The notes beneath the pieces are model-generated. The model worked only from the letters and a program-made list of their open reading frames with translations. It had not been told where the DNA came from and did not search any database. A stretch of 32,324 nt of DNA from a virus. Shown here piece by piece: positions 5,877 to 13,181 of this stretch. Made by a program: the position numbers and the translations under genes. The stretch spans positions 1 to 32,324 of IMG/VR virus record IMGVR_UViG_3300033183_000240. The stretch is one strand, 5' to 3'. Each line of letters opens with the position of its first letter. The stretch's first letter is position 1.

Positions 5877-6051
5877 TATAAATGCTGAGTCATACTACGA
5901 ACTTAATTTTTCGTTGATGCAGTACCATAAATACTCTTTGACGGAAATTGAAAACATGATGCCGTGGGAGAGAGACATTTATGTATCTCTTCTTAGAAAC
6001 TATCTTGACGCTGAGAAACTCAAACAACAACAAGAACACGGTCTCGGTTAA
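5869..6051 (+). CDS. gp51-position small assembly protein / candidate frameshift extension of gp26
   Basis: A 60-aa ORF (starting MAHINAESYYELNFSLMQYH) directly after gp26, in the place of T4 gene 51 (baseplate hub assembly catalyst). It is far shorter than T4 gp51 (249 aa). It contains the pattern YHKYSLTEIENMMPWERDIYVSLLRNYL and a polar C-terminal tail with KLKQQQEH. The short W-E-R-D-I-Y helix near the end resembles the downstream half of GT-type tail chaperones. No Shine-Dalgarno lies at normal distance from the ATG, and the ORF is in the -1 frame of gp26 and open back to the slip site. I therefore infer it is made at least partly as a gp26 fusion. Its stop overlaps the next ATG (TAATG). 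Confidence 0.7.
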   Translation: MAHINAESYYELNFSLMQYHKYSLTEIENMMPWERDIYVSLLRNYLDAEKLKQQQEHGLG

Positions 6052-7574
6052 TGGCAGTAGGATTAGGAGCGTTATTTAAGAATATCTTGAAACTTGGCGT
6101 CAAGGAAGGCGCCAAGAAAAGTATAGCTAATAAATTGTTTGGTCAACCAGAACCTCAGGGTGATCAACTATTAGATCTTTTAGAAGAAGAAAGAAGACAA
6201 AGGGCCATGGAGTTCCTTGGTGGTGGGGGACCAAACTACTACCAAGATCCTAGGGATGACGCTCCTAACATCATGATACCTGAACCTCTGGTTCAAACTC
6301 CCACAAGTGATATTGTTCCACAACAGACTGTTGTTCCTCAAATTATTGAAGCTCCAAGAGGTGCGGTCAGTCGTAGTGTAGCTGGTATCGTCGAAGAAAT
6401 AGATCGCATTAACTCCAATATTGCAGCAATCACACTGGCAATGGCTAGTAGTGCAGAATTGGAGAAGAAATATCGTGATGAGATGATCAAGGATCGTGAA
6501 GAACTCCTTGCACAGAGAGGAAAGGCAAGATCTCAAAGAAGGGCCACGAGACGTAGATCTCAAGCTAGAGGATTCTTTAGACCAATTAGACGAGCTGCGA
6601 GAAGAGCTGGTGGTGGACTTCGCAACTTAGGAAACGCAGCCCTGATGGGACTGGGTATTGAAACTGCTGCATTTGTTGTTAAAGCCCTTGAGAAATTCAT
6701 GGGTGGTCCAGATGATCCAACTACAGCACCAACTGCAAAAGGTGCTGATGATTTGTTCACTGTTATCTCTGGTGGTGAAGGTGGTATAGATTCTTACAAC
6801 ACTGGAACTGCGGGAAGTCAGGCTGGATACGAGCCACCAAAACCAATTTCTCAAATGACCTTTGGGGACATCATGGATGCCCAGGATGCAGGGTCATTGT
6901 TTGCGGTTGGTAAGTACCAAATCACTCCAGATACCATGAAAGGTTTTGTGAGTGGTATGAACATCAAGAGAACTGATGTTTTCAATGAAGAGAATCAAGA
7001 TAAGTTTAAAGAGTATGTTGTAACTAAGAAGAGACCTAAGGTTGGTCAATACTTGGCTGGTTCTAAGAAGATTAGTAGAGATCAAGCTCTCTTAGAGCTT
7101 GCTGCTGAGTTTGCATCTGTTGGTGTTCCTTATGACATGAAACAGGGTGAATACTCTCGTTATGATCCTAGTTTGGGTGGTCCTGTTCCAAGTAGAAACA
7201 TCAAAGCTGGTGAGAGTTTGTATGTTGGATATGGTGGAAACCGTGCAAGTCCTAACCTTGGACCAGATAGGTTAGGACCACTCCTGGAAAAAGCCAGAGA
7301 GAAGGCAATGAGAGGTGGTGGTAGTAATGGTCCTGTAGAGCCAACAAATAACGGTGGTGGACAACAATCGTCCGCCTCATTTACTCCAATGTCAAGTGAT
7401 ATTGCTATGAGTGGTGGTGGTGTTGGTCCTAGGAGCCCAAATGTAACTGTTATTGATAGAAGAGTTGATGTTGCTCTTCGTGGTAAAGGTGGTGGAGTTG
7501 CTCAATCCACAGAGATCCCAGATCGTGATCCTGGTGGTGGTGGACTTTACGAACAATATATGGAGGTTGCATAA
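6051..7574 (+). CDS. tail protein with lysozyme-like muramidase domain
   Basis: A 507-aa protein in three parts. The N-terminal 150 residues are mixed, with helix-prone segments (LLDLLEEERRQRAMEFL; IVEEIDRINSNIAAITLAMASS). A very basic stretch follows at about residues 155-195 (RRATRRRSQARGFF, RRAARRAGG). From about residue 238 it carries a lysozyme-superfamily domain: SGGEGGIDSYNTG with E243 as the likely catalytic acid, ISQMTFGDIMDAQ, LFAVGKYQITPDTMKGFV, NEENQDKFKEYVV. This is the pattern of phage muramidases that cut peptidoglycan. The rest is Gly-rich linker. Placed between the gp26/51 chaperones and the hub, it likely supplies the tail cell-wall hydrolase that T4 carries inside gp5. It could alternatively be annotated as a tape-measure-type protein. 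Confidence 0.7.
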   Translation: MAVGLGALFKNILKLGVKEGAKKSIANKLFGQPEPQGDQLLDLLEEERRQRAMEFLGGGGPNYYQDPRDDAPNIMIPEPLVQTPTSDIVPQQTVVPQIIEAPRGAVSRSVAGIVEEIDRINSNIAAITLAMASSAELEKKYRDEMIKDREELLAQRGKARSQRRATRRRSQARGFFRPIRRAARRAGGGLRNLGNAALMGLGIETAAFVVKALEKFMGGPDDPTTAPTAKGADDLFTVISGGEGGIDSYNTGTAGSQAGYEPPKPISQMTFGDIMDAQDAGSLFAVGKYQITPDTMKGFVSGMNIKRTDVFNEENQDKFKEYVVTKKRPKVGQYLAGSKKISRDQALLELAAEFASVGVPYDMKQGEYSRYDPSLGGPVPSRNIKAGESLYVGYGGNRASPNLGPDRLGPLLEKAREKAMRGGGSNGPVEPTNNGGGQQSSASFTPMSSDIAMSGGGVGPRSPNVTVIDRRVDVALRGKGGGVAQSTEIPDRDPGGGGLYEQYMEVA

Positions 7575-7577
7575 GAC

Positions 7578-9500
7578 ATGGCTTTTAATCCATTCCACGA
7601 TTTAGATCCAGCAGATAGAGAACGTGCCATTGAACAAATGGGTGGTGCAAACACCACCGACTTGAATATAATCCGTAACAGACTGAGAACAACAACTTCT
7701 CAGGTTAAAGGTATTGTTAATCTACTGAAGAGAAAGAACTCAACAGTCAAACAAGATCTTGATAGAATTAAGTTATTAGATCGTAGACTGAAGAGAGTTA
7801 TTCCAATCATTCCTGGAATGGCTGGAGTTGCTGGTGCTGTCTTTGGTGGTCCTCAACGTGTTCAAGGGCGGCCGCCAGGTGGTGGTTTGCCTCCTCTGGG
7901 TGGATTGCCTGGTGGTATTCCCAGAGGTCCTGGTGGAAGACCAACGGCTCCAACACCTGTACCTGTTACTCCAACAGTCCCTGTACCTGAAAAAGAACGA
8001 GAACGAGAAAGAGAACCAGAAAAAGTTCCTGAACAACCACCAGTAACTATACCTGAAAAAGAACGAGAACGAGAACGAGAACGAGAAAGAGAACCACGAA
8101 GACAACCTCAGTGGGAATGGCCAGAACTTCCACCATTTATTCTTCCACCACTTCGTGATCTCCCTGGATTAGCATATGGTCTTAACAACACAATTGTTGC
8201 TAAAGCTAATGCCCTTTCTGGAAAACTTAACGCTATTGCAAAGGATTTTGGATTTGATTTTAATTTAGATCGTGACAAATTAGCAGCTGAATTTGCAAAG
8301 TTACCTGAACAACTAAAAGCAGAACAAGAGAAACAAGCAAAGGCAGGTTTTCTTCAAAATTTGAAGAATCCAAATTTTCTTATTCAATCCATTGCATTGC
8401 AACAGACATTTGGCAATCTAGGCAGACCTGGACGTGACAAGTTTGGTGATACAGCAATGAAATTAAAGCTTGCTTCTAGATTTGCCAGACTTTCCAGAAC
8501 TGCTAATCTAACTAGAAGAACACCAATCGTCTCAGCACCTGCTGCACGGATGTCGCAACTGTCCGCACCGTATGAAGAAATTGTAAAAGGTCTTAGTTAT
8601 GCAACTAGAGAGGGTCGTCGCATAGGTGGAACTACGGTTCGTAGAAGAGCTCCATTGATGCAAGGATTTGAAACTGGTGGACTTTATAGAAAAGGACCTA
8701 CGATTACACCTGAAGAAAGAGCAATGAGGCAAGCCCTGATGGACATTGTTGATGAAGAAACTCTTAGAATGCTTGATGATCCTAAAAACGTTTATTCGCA
8801 ACTTGCAAGAGCTGATGTAGATAAAATTGTTGCACAAACTTATAAGAGAGCTGACGATATTGCAGAACAAATTTTTGGTATCAAAACAAAACCAGCTAAA
8901 AAGGCTGTTACATCCATGAACGTTTTGAAAAGTCCTAGAAACTTTATGAACTCCTTCATGGAGGGTGATATTGCAATTCCACCAGGATCTGTTGCTGATA
9001 TTCTTGGGTTGAATAATGATGCATTGAGAAAGAGATTTGGTTACTATCTCCTTCAAGCACCTCCAGGCAGAAAAGAGCAGTATTCTAACTTCATTTACAA
9101 GATTTCAAAAGATCTTGGTATCGTACCAGGAAAATCTACAAATCAACTTGATGATAATACTGTAAAATTCTTGATGCGTTTCTTTAGACCTTCTGCAAAT
9201 GCGTCTACTGATATTAGACCTGGAATATTCAAGAAATTACAAGAGGGTAATTTTGTTGAAAAAGACAAATTATTTGGTGAGTTCTTATCTATAGATGATA
9301 TTAAAAATCTAAAAGATCCTGCACAAATCCCTGGAGTTCCTGATCCAAAACTTTTGTCACCAGGAGCTGAAAAAATTTCTGGTCCAAGAAGTTCTGTCAT
9401 GGGTGTACCACTTTCTATGGATATTGCTTCATTAAATAGTCAAATAGATAACACCGACATTGTAATCGTTCTCACAGGTCCTAAACCAGTCGCCGTCTAA
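7578..9500 (+). CDS. 640-aa tail protein with ER-repeat linker (tape-measure candidate)
   Basis: A large protein after the lysozyme gene, starting MAFNPFHDLDPADRERAIEQM. Residues about 30-75 are helical and basic. Residues 85-130 are Gly/Pro-rich. Residues 137-180 hold two copies of a charged tract, PEKEREREREPEK and PEKEREREREREREPRR, separated by VPEQPPVTI. The remainder is mostly helical and Ala/Lys/Arg-rich, with no catalytic motif I recognise. Its position between the assembly chaperones and the gp27-like hub, with a length near T4 gp29 (590 aa), makes a tape-measure or hub role plausible, but I see no direct sequence match to gp29. Its stop overlaps the next ATG (TAATG). Confidence 0.7.
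   Translation: MAFNPFHDLDPADRERAIEQMGGANTTDLNIIRNRLRTTTSQVKGIVNLLKRKNSTVKQDLDRIKLLDRRLKRVIPIIPGMAGVAGAVFGGPQRVQGRPPGGGLPPLGGLPGGIPRGPGGRPTAPTPVPVTPTVPVPEKEREREREPEKVPEQPPVTIPEKEREREREREREPRRQPQWEWPELPPFILPPLRDLPGLAYGLNNTIVAKANALSGKLNAIAKDFGFDFNLDRDKLAAEFAKLPEQLKAEQEKQAKAGFLQNLKNPNFLIQSIALQQTFGNLGRPGRDKFGDTAMKLKLASRFARLSRTANLTRRTPIVSAPAARMSQLSAPYEEIVKGLSYATREGRRIGGTTVRRRAPLMQGFETGGLYRKGPTITPEERAMRQALMDIVDEETLRMLDDPKNVYSQLARADVDKIVAQTYKRADDIAEQIFGIKTKPAKKAVTSMNVLKSPRNFMNSFMEGDIAIPPGSVADILGLNNDALRKRFGYYLLQAPPGRKEQYSNFIYKISKDLGIVPGKSTNQLDDNTVKFLMRFFRPSANASTDIRPGIFKKLQEGNFVEKDKLFGEFLSIDDIKNLKDPAQIPGVPDPKLLSPGAEKISGPRSSVMGVPLSMDIASLNSQIDNTDIVIVLTGPKPVAV
7982..8096 (+). repeat. in-frame GAACGA hexamer repeats (Glu-Arg tract)
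   Basis: Two tracts beginning CCTGAAAAAGAACGAGAACG carry runs of GA(A/G)CGA/GAAAGA units that encode alternating Glu and Arg. The second tract is two units longer than the first, a sign of slippage or unequal exchange in steps of six bases that keep the frame. Confidence 0.8.
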
Positions 9501-10798
9501 TGTCATACATCAAGGATATTCGTTTCAATACTTTTAGACTTATCGATCTGGAAGGTAATCCAGCTGACATTGGCGGAGAGATCAATGCAATTTTGAATTT
9601 TGACTATTATGAAAGTATCTTCCAACCAAACATAAACGTCACTGCTGTTCTTGCAGGTACAGATCAAATTCTTGCATCCAGAAAGTTCAAAGGCACTGAA
9701 ACAATGTCCTTTGAAATTGCACACCCAACTGGAACTTTGTCTTTTGATGATCTCACCGTATCATCAACACAACAAAACGATAACAGTTCCACTTCTACTC
9801 TTTATACTATTCTTGCAACTAATCCAGACGCATATAAGAACTATTCAAACAAACTCACACAGAGGTATGATCCAAAGGCTCCAATCAGTACACATGTCAA
9901 TAGTATTCTAAACACACTTGGAACGACCAGACCTGTATATATTGAACAGACTGCCAACTCTCACGGTTTTTATGGTAATCATTGGACACCTTATAAAGCC
10001 CTGTATTGGTTAGCAAAGAGATCTGCATCTGGAACTGGTAGTGATGATGGTTCTGGAACATCTAGAGTTGGATTTACATTCTATGAAACTGCTGATGGGT
10101 ATAGATTTGAGAGTATTGATACTATCGCATCAGAAGCAAAAACTAACGTAATTGAATTTTTCAGACAAAGTGATGTTGTTGATGAGAACGAGGATTTCAA
10201 CATATACAACATGAGATTCGAAAAAGATCAGAATATACTTGACCAAATGGCGAAAGGTATGTATAGTGATAGTGCCAAATATTTTAACGTTCACAGTTTA
10301 GCTCAAGGTTTCAAAGTACCTGGTCAAGAACTGAGTTATGCTAACAAAGTTTTCTCTGGTCAATCACATTTTGGTAGTGAAGGCATTGCCAACTACTCTT
10401 TTAATGATTCGATGAACTTTGATAGTGTTCAGTTTTTTGTTGATGGAACGATGAAAACCGATGGTCAAATGGAGTATAATGCTGCAGGAGACGGAGAAGA
10501 CAACATTCACAAAACCAAAGCTCAATCAAGAATGAGATATGCATCGATCATGTCTAGATCATTGAGAGCAACGGTTCCACTTAACTTCAGACTCAAAGCT
10601 GGCCGTGCCATCGACATCTCACTAATTCAAAGTGGAGTTGGTGAATCAAAACACCAAAGTGGTGTCTACATCATCAAAGATTTAAGACACAATATTGAAA
10701 TGACTGAAGACGGTATTAAAGGATTCACTCATCTCAGACTTCTAAGTGACTCCTATGGTGTTGATAGTGATGTCACAACAAACAATTTTCTTGAGTAA
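9500..10798 (+). CDS. baseplate hub protein, gp27-like
   Basis: A 432-aa protein starting MSYIKDIRFNTFRLIDLEG. The order beta-rich N-terminus (INAILNFDYYESIFQPNINVTAVLAG), middle domain (YKALYWLAKRSA, VGFTFYETADGYRFESID) and beta-barrel-like C-terminus (VPLNFRLKAGRAIDISLI, GVYIIKDLRHNIE) fits the T4 gp27 hub, which has two barrel domains and forms the trimer on which gp5 sits. The size is near T4 gp27 (391 aa), and the gene lies upstream of gp5, separated only by cp12. The pattern of a phage-tail hub (gpD/gp27 class) is clear, but sequence identity with T4 gp27 appears low. Confidence 0.75.
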   Translation: MSYIKDIRFNTFRLIDLEGNPADIGGEINAILNFDYYESIFQPNINVTAVLAGTDQILASRKFKGTETMSFEIAHPTGTLSFDDLTVSSTQQNDNSSTSTLYTILATNPDAYKNYSNKLTQRYDPKAPISTHVNSILNTLGTTRPVYIEQTANSHGFYGNHWTPYKALYWLAKRSASGTGSDDGSGTSRVGFTFYETADGYRFESIDTIASEAKTNVIEFFRQSDVVDENEDFNIYNMRFEKDQNILDQMAKGMYSDSAKYFNVHSLAQGFKVPGQELSYANKVFSGQSHFGSEGIANYSFNDSMNFDSVQFFVDGTMKTDGQMEYNAAGDGEDNIHKTKAQSRMRYASIMSRSLRATVPLNFRLKAGRAIDISLIQSGVGESKHQSGVYIIKDLRHNIEMTEDGIKGFTHLRLLSDSYGVDSDVTTNNFLE

Positions 10799-10802
10799 AT
10801 AG
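10795..10802 (+). promoter_or_regulatory. possible late promoter box for cp12
   Basis: GTAAATAG overlaps the stop codon of the gp27-like gene and lies 19 nt before the cp12 ATG. It is a weaker match to the CTAAATA box used elsewhere in the window. Confidence 0.35.
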
Positions 10803-10821
10803 TTCAATACGAAACAAAGCT

Positions 10822-11034
10822 ATGGAAAACATCGACCAACACATTAAAAAAGACGAAGAACTTCTGAGTGATCCCACTATTTCGCCACAGTCGCGCCGTC
10901 ATACTGAAGAAGAGTTGGAAGCACTGAAAGCATATAAAGAAAACCACCCTGGTGAGTCACACGATCCCACTCCACTTGAGTTGTATTGTGACACTCATCC
11001 CGATGCTTCTGAGTGTAGGGTCTACGACGACTGA
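10822..11034 (+). CDS. cp12: CP12-like Calvin cycle regulator (auxiliary metabolic gene)
   Basis: A 70-aa protein whose C-terminus carries the CP12 signature: LELYC(56)-DTHPDASE-C(65)RVYDD, a Cys-X8-Cys pair followed by the acidic end that enters the GAPDH active site. The preceding helix (TEEELEALKAYKENHPG) also fits the CP12 core. The N-terminal Cys pair of plant-type CP12 is absent. CP12 binds GAPDH and phosphoribulokinase and shuts the Calvin cycle down. In cyanophages it is known as a gene that redirects host carbon flow towards the pentose phosphate pathway and nucleotide synthesis. It sits between the hub genes gp27-like and gp5, with (A)TAAATA boxes on both sides, so late expression is possible. 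Confidence 0.87.
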   Translation: MENIDQHIKKDEELLSDPTISPQSRRHTEEELEALKAYKENHPGESHDPTPLELYCDTHPDASECRVYDD

Positions 11035-11040
11035 TAAATA
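11033..11040 (+). promoter_or_regulatory. late promoter box for gp5
   Basis: GATAAATA, overlapping the cp12 stop codon and followed by an A-run, lies 20 nt before the gp5 ATG. It is one of the best matches in the window to the T4-type late consensus TATAAATA. Confidence 0.6.
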
Positions 11041-11060: not shown

Positions 11061-13181
11061 ATGGTAGATCTACTTGAAGGCTCATCAAACTTTGGATCTG
11101 AGGTTAAATGGTGGATCGGGGTAGTTGCGCCTCGATCTGCCTGGGCTGATGGTGGAAACTATGATAACGACAAAGACTACGGTAATAAACAAAACAAGGG
11201 TGAAGTAGAGGGAATATACTACAACCGCGTAAAGGTCAGAGTGGTTGGGTATCATGACCAGATTGCTAACCCATATGATCTGCCTTGGGCTAACATCATG
11301 GCATCACCCATGATGGCAGCTGGTTATGGTGGTCTAGAACAAAACCATATGTTGCGTGGTGGTGAAAGTGTCTTTGGTTTCTGGGCTGACGGTGAGGATG
11401 AACAGAAACCAGTAATCATGGGTGTCTTTTATAGACACGTTACCGCTGAAGATGCTGGTCCACCACCACAAGGAAAACAGGCTCCATTAAAGAACGGAAA
11501 CGCACAACAAAATCCTGATGGTACTTTTACACCAAAAGGAACAACGGAAATTGTAACTGGTCGAAAGATTTCTATTAACCAGAGAGGAACTGTAAGACTG
11601 GTTCTTAACCAGAAGAGTGCTGAGAAAAAAGAAGAATCTGTATCTCAAGCTGCAGAAATTTCTGATGATCAGTTAGATGTTGGTGCATCGAAACCAACGT
11701 GTAAAAGAGACAATGCGATCGGTGAAATTACTTATCTTCTTGGTGAGTTCTCAAAGATTCTTATCACTGCACAAAATTATGCAAACTTCTATGTAAATGG
11801 GATTACTGGAGTTCTTCAGAATCTTCAGGGCGAGATTAATCTTATCGCTTCTAAGATTGCAAAGATCATGACAGGTCTTTTCAATGGTGTTCGTGATTGG
11901 ATCTTTGCTGAGATTGGAAAAAGAATTTCTAACTTTATCAACAGTGTTCTTCCAGAAGAAGTCAAACCTATTTTTGGTTTGAGTTTGAAAGAGATCATGG
12001 ATACAATCTATTGTATCTTTGAGAATCTAATCAAGTCTCTGTTGAAGACAGTTAGTGATTTCTTAGCTGCATTAGTTGGTAAGATGGTTAATGCACCAAT
12101 CTGTGCCGCAGAACAGTTCGTTGGTGGTCTTTTAAATCAACTCAGTCAAGGTATTAGTGATGCAATTTCACCAATTCTGAATAGTTTGAGTGGTAGTCTT
12201 GGTGGTGCTCTTGGAAAGGTAAATGAGATCATCGATAAGGCTTTAAATTTTGTTGGTCTTATCTACAACTTCATTGGTTGTGATGAGTTCAAGTGCCCAC
12301 AACCATCTAGATGGGATAACAGACTTGGACCATCTCAATCAGAACGTGACAATGCAAACAAAATCTTCAAGAGTATTTCACTTCTCAATATTCCTACCGC
12401 GTTTGATGAAAATGGAAATCCAAAACAGACTCTTGGTGGTTTCTTAGATGAGGCTGGTGAAAATACCAGTAGTATCTTTAATCTGACACCAGGACAACAA
12501 CAGAGTGCTGCTGAGGTTGCATCTCTGGTTGGTGGTTGCGAAACTCGCGTCCTGCGTTGTGGTCCACCAACGATTCAAATCTTTGGTGGAGATGGTATTG
12601 GTGGATTTGCAAATGCTGTTGTTAGTAACCTTGGAGACATCATTGGTGCTGATGTAATTGAGAGAGGAATTGGATATTCACCAGAACGACCACCATATGT
12701 CACGTTCAAAGATGCTTGTGGAAATGGAGCTGGTGCAAGAGGTCGTGCAATCATTGGTGCTGATGGTGGTATTGATCGTATTGTGATTGATTATGGTGGA
12801 TATGGTTATCTTAATAATTTTGGCGATGTGATCACAACCGAAGGAACTATTCCTGGAACTCCTGTAGAAGGTGACGAATTGGTTGGTCAAATTGACGAAG
12901 TTATTGTCACAAACCCAGGAAACAGTTATAATCCTGGAGATATTATTACTGTTGGTAATGGTGCTGTTTTAGAACCAGTTGTTCAGGATGGATATGTTCT
13001 TGAAGTGAAGGTTCTTAATCCTGGACTTGGATTTACTGAACTCCCAGATATTGAAATAAATAGTGAAACTGGAGTTGGTGCAGCCTTTAGACCAGTTCTC
13101 AAGTTCACTAGAGTTGACGAACTTTCTCAACCACTTGACCCAGGTAAAGTTGTACAAGTCATTAACTGCGTATCAAGATAA
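11061..13181 (+). CDS. gp5: gp5 baseplate hub OB-fold protein, no lysozyme domain
   Basis: A 706-aa protein. Residues 12-130 form the gp5-type OB domain: EVKWWIGVVAPRSAW, YYNRVKVRVVGYHDQ, LPWANIMASPMM, MLRGGESVFGFWADGEDEQKPVIMGVFYR. Residues about 210-415 are an unusual hydrophobic helical region (ITGVLQNLQGEINLIASKI, SLLKTVSDFLAALVGKMV) with Cys residues. The C-terminal 200 residues hold at least three repeats of the type G-x-G-Y/S-x-x-P-x-V/I (ERGIGYSPERPPYVTF, VTNPGNSYNPGDIITV, VLNPGLGFTELPDIEI). The T4 tail lysozyme between OB fold and needle is missing; a lysozyme is found instead in the gene at 6051. The stop overlaps the next ATG, whose product looks like the needle. Confidence 0.85.
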   Translation: MVDLLEGSSNFGSEVKWWIGVVAPRSAWADGGNYDNDKDYGNKQNKGEVEGIYYNRVKVRVVGYHDQIANPYDLPWANIMASPMMAAGYGGLEQNHMLRGGESVFGFWADGEDEQKPVIMGVFYRHVTAEDAGPPPQGKQAPLKNGNAQQNPDGTFTPKGTTEIVTGRKISINQRGTVRLVLNQKSAEKKEESVSQAAEISDDQLDVGASKPTCKRDNAIGEITYLLGEFSKILITAQNYANFYVNGITGVLQNLQGEINLIASKIAKIMTGLFNGVRDWIFAEIGKRISNFINSVLPEEVKPIFGLSLKEIMDTIYCIFENLIKSLLKTVSDFLAALVGKMVNAPICAAEQFVGGLLNQLSQGISDAISPILNSLSGSLGGALGKVNEIIDKALNFVGLIYNFIGCDEFKCPQPSRWDNRLGPSQSERDNANKIFKSISLLNIPTAFDENGNPKQTLGGFLDEAGENTSSIFNLTPGQQQSAAEVASLVGGCETRVLRCGPPTIQIFGGDGIGGFANAVVSNLGDIIGADVIERGIGYSPERPPYVTFKDACGNGAGARGRAIIGADGGIDRIVIDYGGYGYLNNFGDVITTEGTIPGTPVEGDELVGQIDEVIVTNPGNSYNPGDIITVGNGAVLEPVVQDGYVLEVKVLNPGLGFTELPDIEINSETGVGAAFRPVLKFTRVDELSQPLDPGKVVQVINCVSR

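Follow-up and report, generated by a model that had tools for sequence, protein, structure and literature searches.

The window analysed here is a virus record of 32,324 bases from a T4-like cyanophage, in which a CP12-like gene (cp12) stands between a gp27-type baseplate hub gene and gp5 (Table 1). The sequence-only reading had placed such a gene at this junction with a TAAATA-type box on either side, and this is confirmed by the open reading frame, by the Pfam and PHROG matches, and by the positions of the boxes; the range 10795-11040 given in that reading comprises the cp12 frame and both boxes. The label "gp27-like" for the upstream gene was also introduced there, and the position of this gene fits the cyanophage T4-GC 15 protein that precedes gp5. 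The gaps around cp12 measure 23 bases on the hub side and 26 bases on the gp5 side, with one TAAATA box in each. No Shine-Dalgarno-like purine run was seen in the cp12 leader, and a megablast search with the hub-cp12-gp5 stretch of the window matched no phage record. Farther upstream, between gp51 and the hub gene, two long open reading frames (6051-7574 and 7578-9500) have no Pfam match, the second being without a PHROG match as well; their counterparts in isolates are often annotated as peptidoglycan hydrolase.

Table 1. Features of the hub-cp12-gp5 region (positions in the window).
Feature	Position	Strand	Basis or remark
gp27-type baseplate hub / tail protein gene	9500..10798	+	ORF; phrog_350 tail protein, E 1.4e-69
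late-promoter-like box AGTAAATA before cp12	10794..10801 (TAAATA 10796-10801)	+	putative function
cp12 leader	10802..10821	+	resembles the leader of cp12 genes sited elsewhere
cp12, CP12-like Calvin-cycle regulator, 70 aa, C-terminal Cys pair only	10822..11034	+	Pfam PF02672, E 3e-14; phrog_627, E 6.5e-29
late-promoter-like box GATAAATA before gp5	11033..11040 (TAAATA from 11035)	+	putative function
gp5-type gene (baseplate hub subunit and tail lysozyme)	11061..13181	+	phrog_1922, E 1.5e-118

The Pfam CP12 match reaches 54 bits, compared to a cut-off of 22.7, and joins residues 2-69 to positions 3-70 of the 70-position profile. Alignment to the CP12 chains 6gfo, 3zdf and 6kez places the C-terminal Cys pair and the GAPDH-docking tail ECRVYDD in the window protein. 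Its only two cysteines are C56 and C65, with none before residue 56; the N-terminal pair is absent, and the protein is therefore not a classical CP12 (CP12-N/C). The AWD_VEE core, a motif whose definition is taken from PMC3906501, is absent as well, RRHTE..EEL lying opposite AAWDEVEEL in the 6kez alignment. The sequence-only reading had pointed to the missing N-terminal pair; this is true but not special, because all 89 phage CP12 sequences examined have the C-terminal pair only, and picocyanobacterial host copies are alike in this respect. Among cellular-genome loci, 34 full-length ones also lack the N-terminal pair (in L129, a single Cys stands upstream of the probable start), and another locus, L138, is partial. 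Judged by these residues, the window protein is of the picocyanobacterial/cyanophage CP12 type with the C-terminal pair only. Two of the 34 cellular loci, L104 and L122, have phage-type CP12 in contigs labelled Euryarchaeota and Rhodopirellula, and are probably cyanophage DNA in mis-binned assemblies. An AlphaFold2 model (mean pLDDT 88) has helices at residues 4-16, 22-41, 51-58 and 63-69; its top PDB match, the cyanobacterial full-length CP12 6gfo_F, has an E value of only 0.29 and adds little. By analogy with its family, the window CP12 would be expected to bind GAPDH, and PRK as well, and to inhibit GAPDH; C56 and C65 may provide redox control.

The setting of cp12 between the hub gene and gp5 had been treated as an oddity, and a survey of its position in other cyanophages had been proposed along with that claim. 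We inspected 24 cyanophage isolates, picked for spread from 374 records with a match, and found cp12 after the gp27-type gene, on the way to gp5, in 19 of them (S-T4, S-H25, DSL-LC03, S-SZBM1, DSL-LC02, S-CREM1, S-SM2, S-RIM2, S-SCSM1, Syn9, S-SM1, P-SSM7, S-SSM4, Syn10, P-RSM4, Bellamy, ACG-2014d, S-H38 and S-RSM4), and elsewhere in five (S-SRM01, S-TIM61, P-SSM2, P-HM2 and P-TIM68). The oddity is thus not borne out: the placement is usual, and it is already known, Sullivan 2010 (PMC3037559) locating talC and cp12 near psbA or near gp5. The hub-gp5 junction is a standard cargo site of T4-like cyanophages. In P-TIM68 (L157:2501-2728), cp12 immediately precedes baseplate wedge genes and has GGTAAATA at -31, which is another placement on the side of structural genes.

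It could be argued that the junction is a neutral landing site for cargo (cp12, CpeT, tRNA, 2OG oxygenase) that leaves the operon undisturbed, so that the timing of cp12 has no selective meaning. Other cargo does occupy the junction in S-RIM2, S-SZBM1, Syn9, S-SM1, P-RSM4 and others, and 'near gp5 with tRNAs' is listed as a hot spot in Sullivan 2010 (PMC3037559). However, the hub gene is immediately followed by cp12 in 19/19 hub-sited isolates inspected, and cp12 genes sited elsewhere, in accessory regions, also carry a late-type box (68/69, see below), which indicates that the box is tied to the gene and not to the site alone. We therefore consider neutrality of the site quite unlikely.

We also examined the boxes themselves, using as a criterion of a T4-type late promoter the presence of a TATAAATA or NATAAATA box shortly upstream of a late gene; in PMC2984593, the cyanophage late promoters of this type are given as NATAAATA. 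The box before cp12, which overlaps the hub stop codon, matches TATAAATA at only 6/8 positions, a point against the late reading, and the box before gp5, which overlaps the cp12 stop codon, is a 7/8 match. TAAATA is not enriched across the window (15 occurrences on the + strand versus 10.5 expected), and the count of NATAAATA is 4 versus 3.0 expected. Seven of the 15 TAAATA nevertheless fall within 60 nt before called + genes, i.e., in 3.1% of the sequence (P 1.3e-7), the two boxes that flank cp12 being themselves among these seven. Both boxes are found at the same place in all five hub-sited relatives of the window lineage (L024, L029, L034, L036 and L074), with TAAATA kept before cp12 and ATAAATA kept before gp5 in 5/5. 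Since the hub proteins of these relatives are 96%, 51%, 47%, 52% and 51% identical to that of the window, respectively, the boxes are probably not due to chance, and a chance origin was rejected on conservation, despite the lack of window-wide enrichment of TAAATA. No sigma-70-like promoter was found in the 120 nt before cp12, either in the window or in its five relatives, and no terminator was found after the window cp12.

Among the hub-sited isolates, TAAATA occurs within 60 nt before cp12 in 14/19. The other five (S-T4, DSL-LC02, DSL-LC03, S-SM2 and Bellamy) have no box, cp12 abutting its neighbours, and the box is thus not essential to the hub site. The metagenome loci L012, L013, L017 and L022 are packed in the same way; they lack the box and have a purine-rich ribosome site. 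In P-SSM7 and P-RSM4, the annotated cp12 start is 18-21 nt upstream of the conserved start, so that their boxes also lie near -30.

Transcription of the window cp12 together with the tail genes, as proposed in the sequence-only reading, is the simplest interpretation, because conserved late-type boxes flank the gene, there is no sigma-70-like promoter before it, and there is no terminator after it. We put the probability that cp12 is late and co-expressed with the tail genes at about 0.6. The gene is a small metabolic cargo at the hub-gp5 junction with its own late-type box and leader, gp5 having another box, and would most likely be transcribed late, through initiation at its own box and also as part of transcripts that run on from the hub operon into gp5. 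The C-terminal tail of the protein most likely docks in host GAPDH; such docking would damp the Calvin cycle, so that NADPH and carbon could go to the pentose phosphate pathway and to phage synthesis. This explanation as a whole, a late-type boxed cargo gene in a tail operon, appears to us about as probable as the late co-expression itself.

The proposal of co-expression does not stand in full, however. The cp12 of P-HM2 has CATAAATA at -30 together with TTGACA-17-TAGGAT, and expression measurements assign it to the middle cluster (PMC5082946), although it lies upstream of talC, outside the tail operon; a TAAATA-type box is therefore no proof of late-only expression. By the same token, the window cp12 could be a middle gene in spite of its place, driven by the box plus weak or unseen early elements, or by upstream transcripts. 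An overlap of early with late promoters has been proposed for the middle genes of cyanophages (PMC2984593), and psbA of S-PM2d has motifs for both kinds of promoters (PMC5931967). A hub-sited example is provided by P-RSM4 (L156:2420-2500), in which a perfect TTGACA-17-TATAAT, followed by TATAAATA, precedes cp12. In all six members of the window lineage, the 120 nt upstream of cp12 contain no sigma-70-like site, which argues against expression in the middle phase; furthermore, the excess of such sites before cp12 across the loci is only mild (10/32 versus 5.3 expected by shuffling). Middle expression of the window gene thus appears improbable, although it is the strongest of the alternatives. 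The P-RSM4 element is, in its own right, a candidate dual early/late promoter within a tail operon.

No report on the timing of hub-sited cp12 was found in the literature searched, most subscription papers being outside the search. Doron in 2016 reportedly followed an infection time course of Syn9, in which cp12 is hub-sited. Secondary reports say that CO2 fixation stops at about 2 h in infection by S-RSM4, sooner than with S-PM2. Such an early arrest fits late-only CP12 poorly, given that cp12 of S-RSM4 is hub-sited; however, talC, gnd and zwf are also present in this phage. The arrest, and the location of the gene among hub genes, are the points in favor of a further scenario, in which CP12 is made late for loading into the particle with the hub and is delivered with the DNA, for immediate inhibition of the Calvin cycle in the next host. 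Accessory-sited cp12 is common, which speaks against loading, and the Syn9 record labels gp16, but not gp17 (cp12), as a structural protein, although an 8-kDa protein could be missed. We consider delivery in the particle highly improbable. Late transcription with the tail genes remains our preferred interpretation.

One freshwater/estuarine group carries cp12 away from the tail genes and has an empty hub-gp5 junction. Among the best 80 viral contigs nearest to the window CP12, 11 are hub-sited and 69 are not; the latter, together with S-SRM01 and S-TIM61, make up an accessory-sited set of 71 loci. No hub or gp5 match occurs in the available sequence of these loci, of which 61 have at least 500 nt upstream and 39 have at least 3 kb on both sides, so that for the shortest contigs the site is inferred. 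In S-SRM01 and seven contigs (L142-L148), a gp5-type frame starts within about 10 nt of the hub stop, and the P-HM2 junction is likewise empty. Accessory-sited cp12 has ATAAATA within 60 nt in 68 of the 69 loci with enough upstream sequence, compared to 83/2176 other ORF starts; TAAATA lies at -24 to -31, and the sole miss is S-TIM61. The leader reads approximately CGATACAAAAC before the ATG, with conservation of 0.74-0.85, and the box identity is 0.94, versus 0.55 for four-fold sites of cp12. It should be noted that the surveyed loci are related, so that none of these counts represents independent events. A terminator-like hairpin is present after cp12 in 48/71 accessory-sited versus 0/18 hub-sited loci, and a sigma-70-like site occurs within 140 nt after accessory-sited cp12 in 37/71 loci, versus 12.6 by shuffling. 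A small conserved protein (about 58 aa, with ...MEKFAELMVRSLEGK...; e.g., L062:9795-9971) is encoded just before accessory-sited cp12 in 56/71 loci, as counted by a simple pattern.

The leader of the window cp12 is identical to accessory-sited leaders at up to 22/29 positions, box included, part of the match being the shared box; among 2582 other ORF starts, the maximum is 21 and the 99.9th percentile is 17. The cp12 tree shows 8 changes of the site label, 4 of them forced by well-supported branches, whereas the hub tree separates the window lineage (6 rows) from seven accessory-sited phages, both groups having 100/100 support. The leader match and these site changes, set against the hub groups, make it likely that box, leader and cp12 moved together as a unit. 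The unit is present both in the tail operon and in accessory regions in different lineages, a pattern that carries neither direction nor date. Sequence identities had suggested that the window lineage and accessory-sited phages recently exchanged cp12 horizontally: the window CP12 and those of L001, L003, L015, L016 and L020 share 96-97% of protein positions, with four-fold identity of 0.60-0.79, and hub identity is 27-31% in the accessory-sited phages with a hub found, which do not include these five. Such an exchange is not claimed, because a single clade for the six window-lineage cp12 genes was not rejected by the AU test on the 210-base tree (p 0.27).

The window cp12 is a real gene in an ordinary arrangement, and the conserved late-type cassette is the part of interest; it looks like a late-promoter cassette placed in a tail operon. 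What is added to the sequence-only reading is the form of the gene, i.e., the pattern of box, leader and terminator by site. A broader rule can be put forward only tentatively: phage CP12 may in general be a late-phase regulator, its gene travelling as a cassette that brings along a late promoter and a conserved leader. A terminator would insulate this cassette where the surrounding genes have sigma-70-like promoters and would be absent in the tail operon, and the Calvin cycle would be shut down in step with virion assembly rather than with DNA replication. In the prevailing view, CP12 allows cyanophages to halt carbon fixation and to supply nucleotide synthesis while they replicate. Late production of CP12 in many phages, together with the tail genes, would make it a switch that serves assembly or late protein synthesis instead, and models of infection and carbon fixation would then need two classes of phages. 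Ordinary as the placement is, the conserved late-type cassette makes the timing directly testable in cultured Syn9, S-RSM4 and P-HM2.

Compared to known systems, the window gene shares its place with the cp12 of marine T4-like cyanophages (T4-GC 337; S-SM2, Bellamy, S-RSM4 and Syn9), which belongs to the same family and follows the same gp27-type gene. In S-SM2, Bellamy and S-RSM4, cp12 is directly before gp5, as in the window, whereas in Syn9 CpeT and a tRNA intervene; S-SM2 and Bellamy are tightly packed and have no box, unlike the window with a box in each of its two gaps. The Synechococcus phage isolates S-T4, DSL-LC02 and DSL-LC03 have the same hub-cp12-gp5 order, with CP12 71, 61 and 63% identical to that of the window, but their cp12 abuts or overlaps both neighbours and no TAAATA box is present. 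S-SRM01 and related freshwater/estuarine contigs have CP12 up to 97% identical to the window protein (74% for S-SRM01) and a related leader with ATAAATA; in contrast to the window, their cp12 lies among the small genes of an accessory region, in many cases followed by a terminator, and the hub-gp5 junction is empty. The cp12-talC arrangement of P-HM2 involves the same family and a similar box; unlike the window gene, this cp12 has a TTGACA element and adjoins talC in the psbA region, and its expression was measured as that of a middle gene (PMC5082946). Picocyanobacterial CP12 shares the C-terminal pair only, the missing AWD motif and the HDPT.LELYC...ECRVYDD tail. It is two residues longer between the first helices, where phage copies have DPT.SPQ.RRH (residues 16-27 of the window protein) and P-SSM2 is unlike both; this segment is a possible marker of phage origin.
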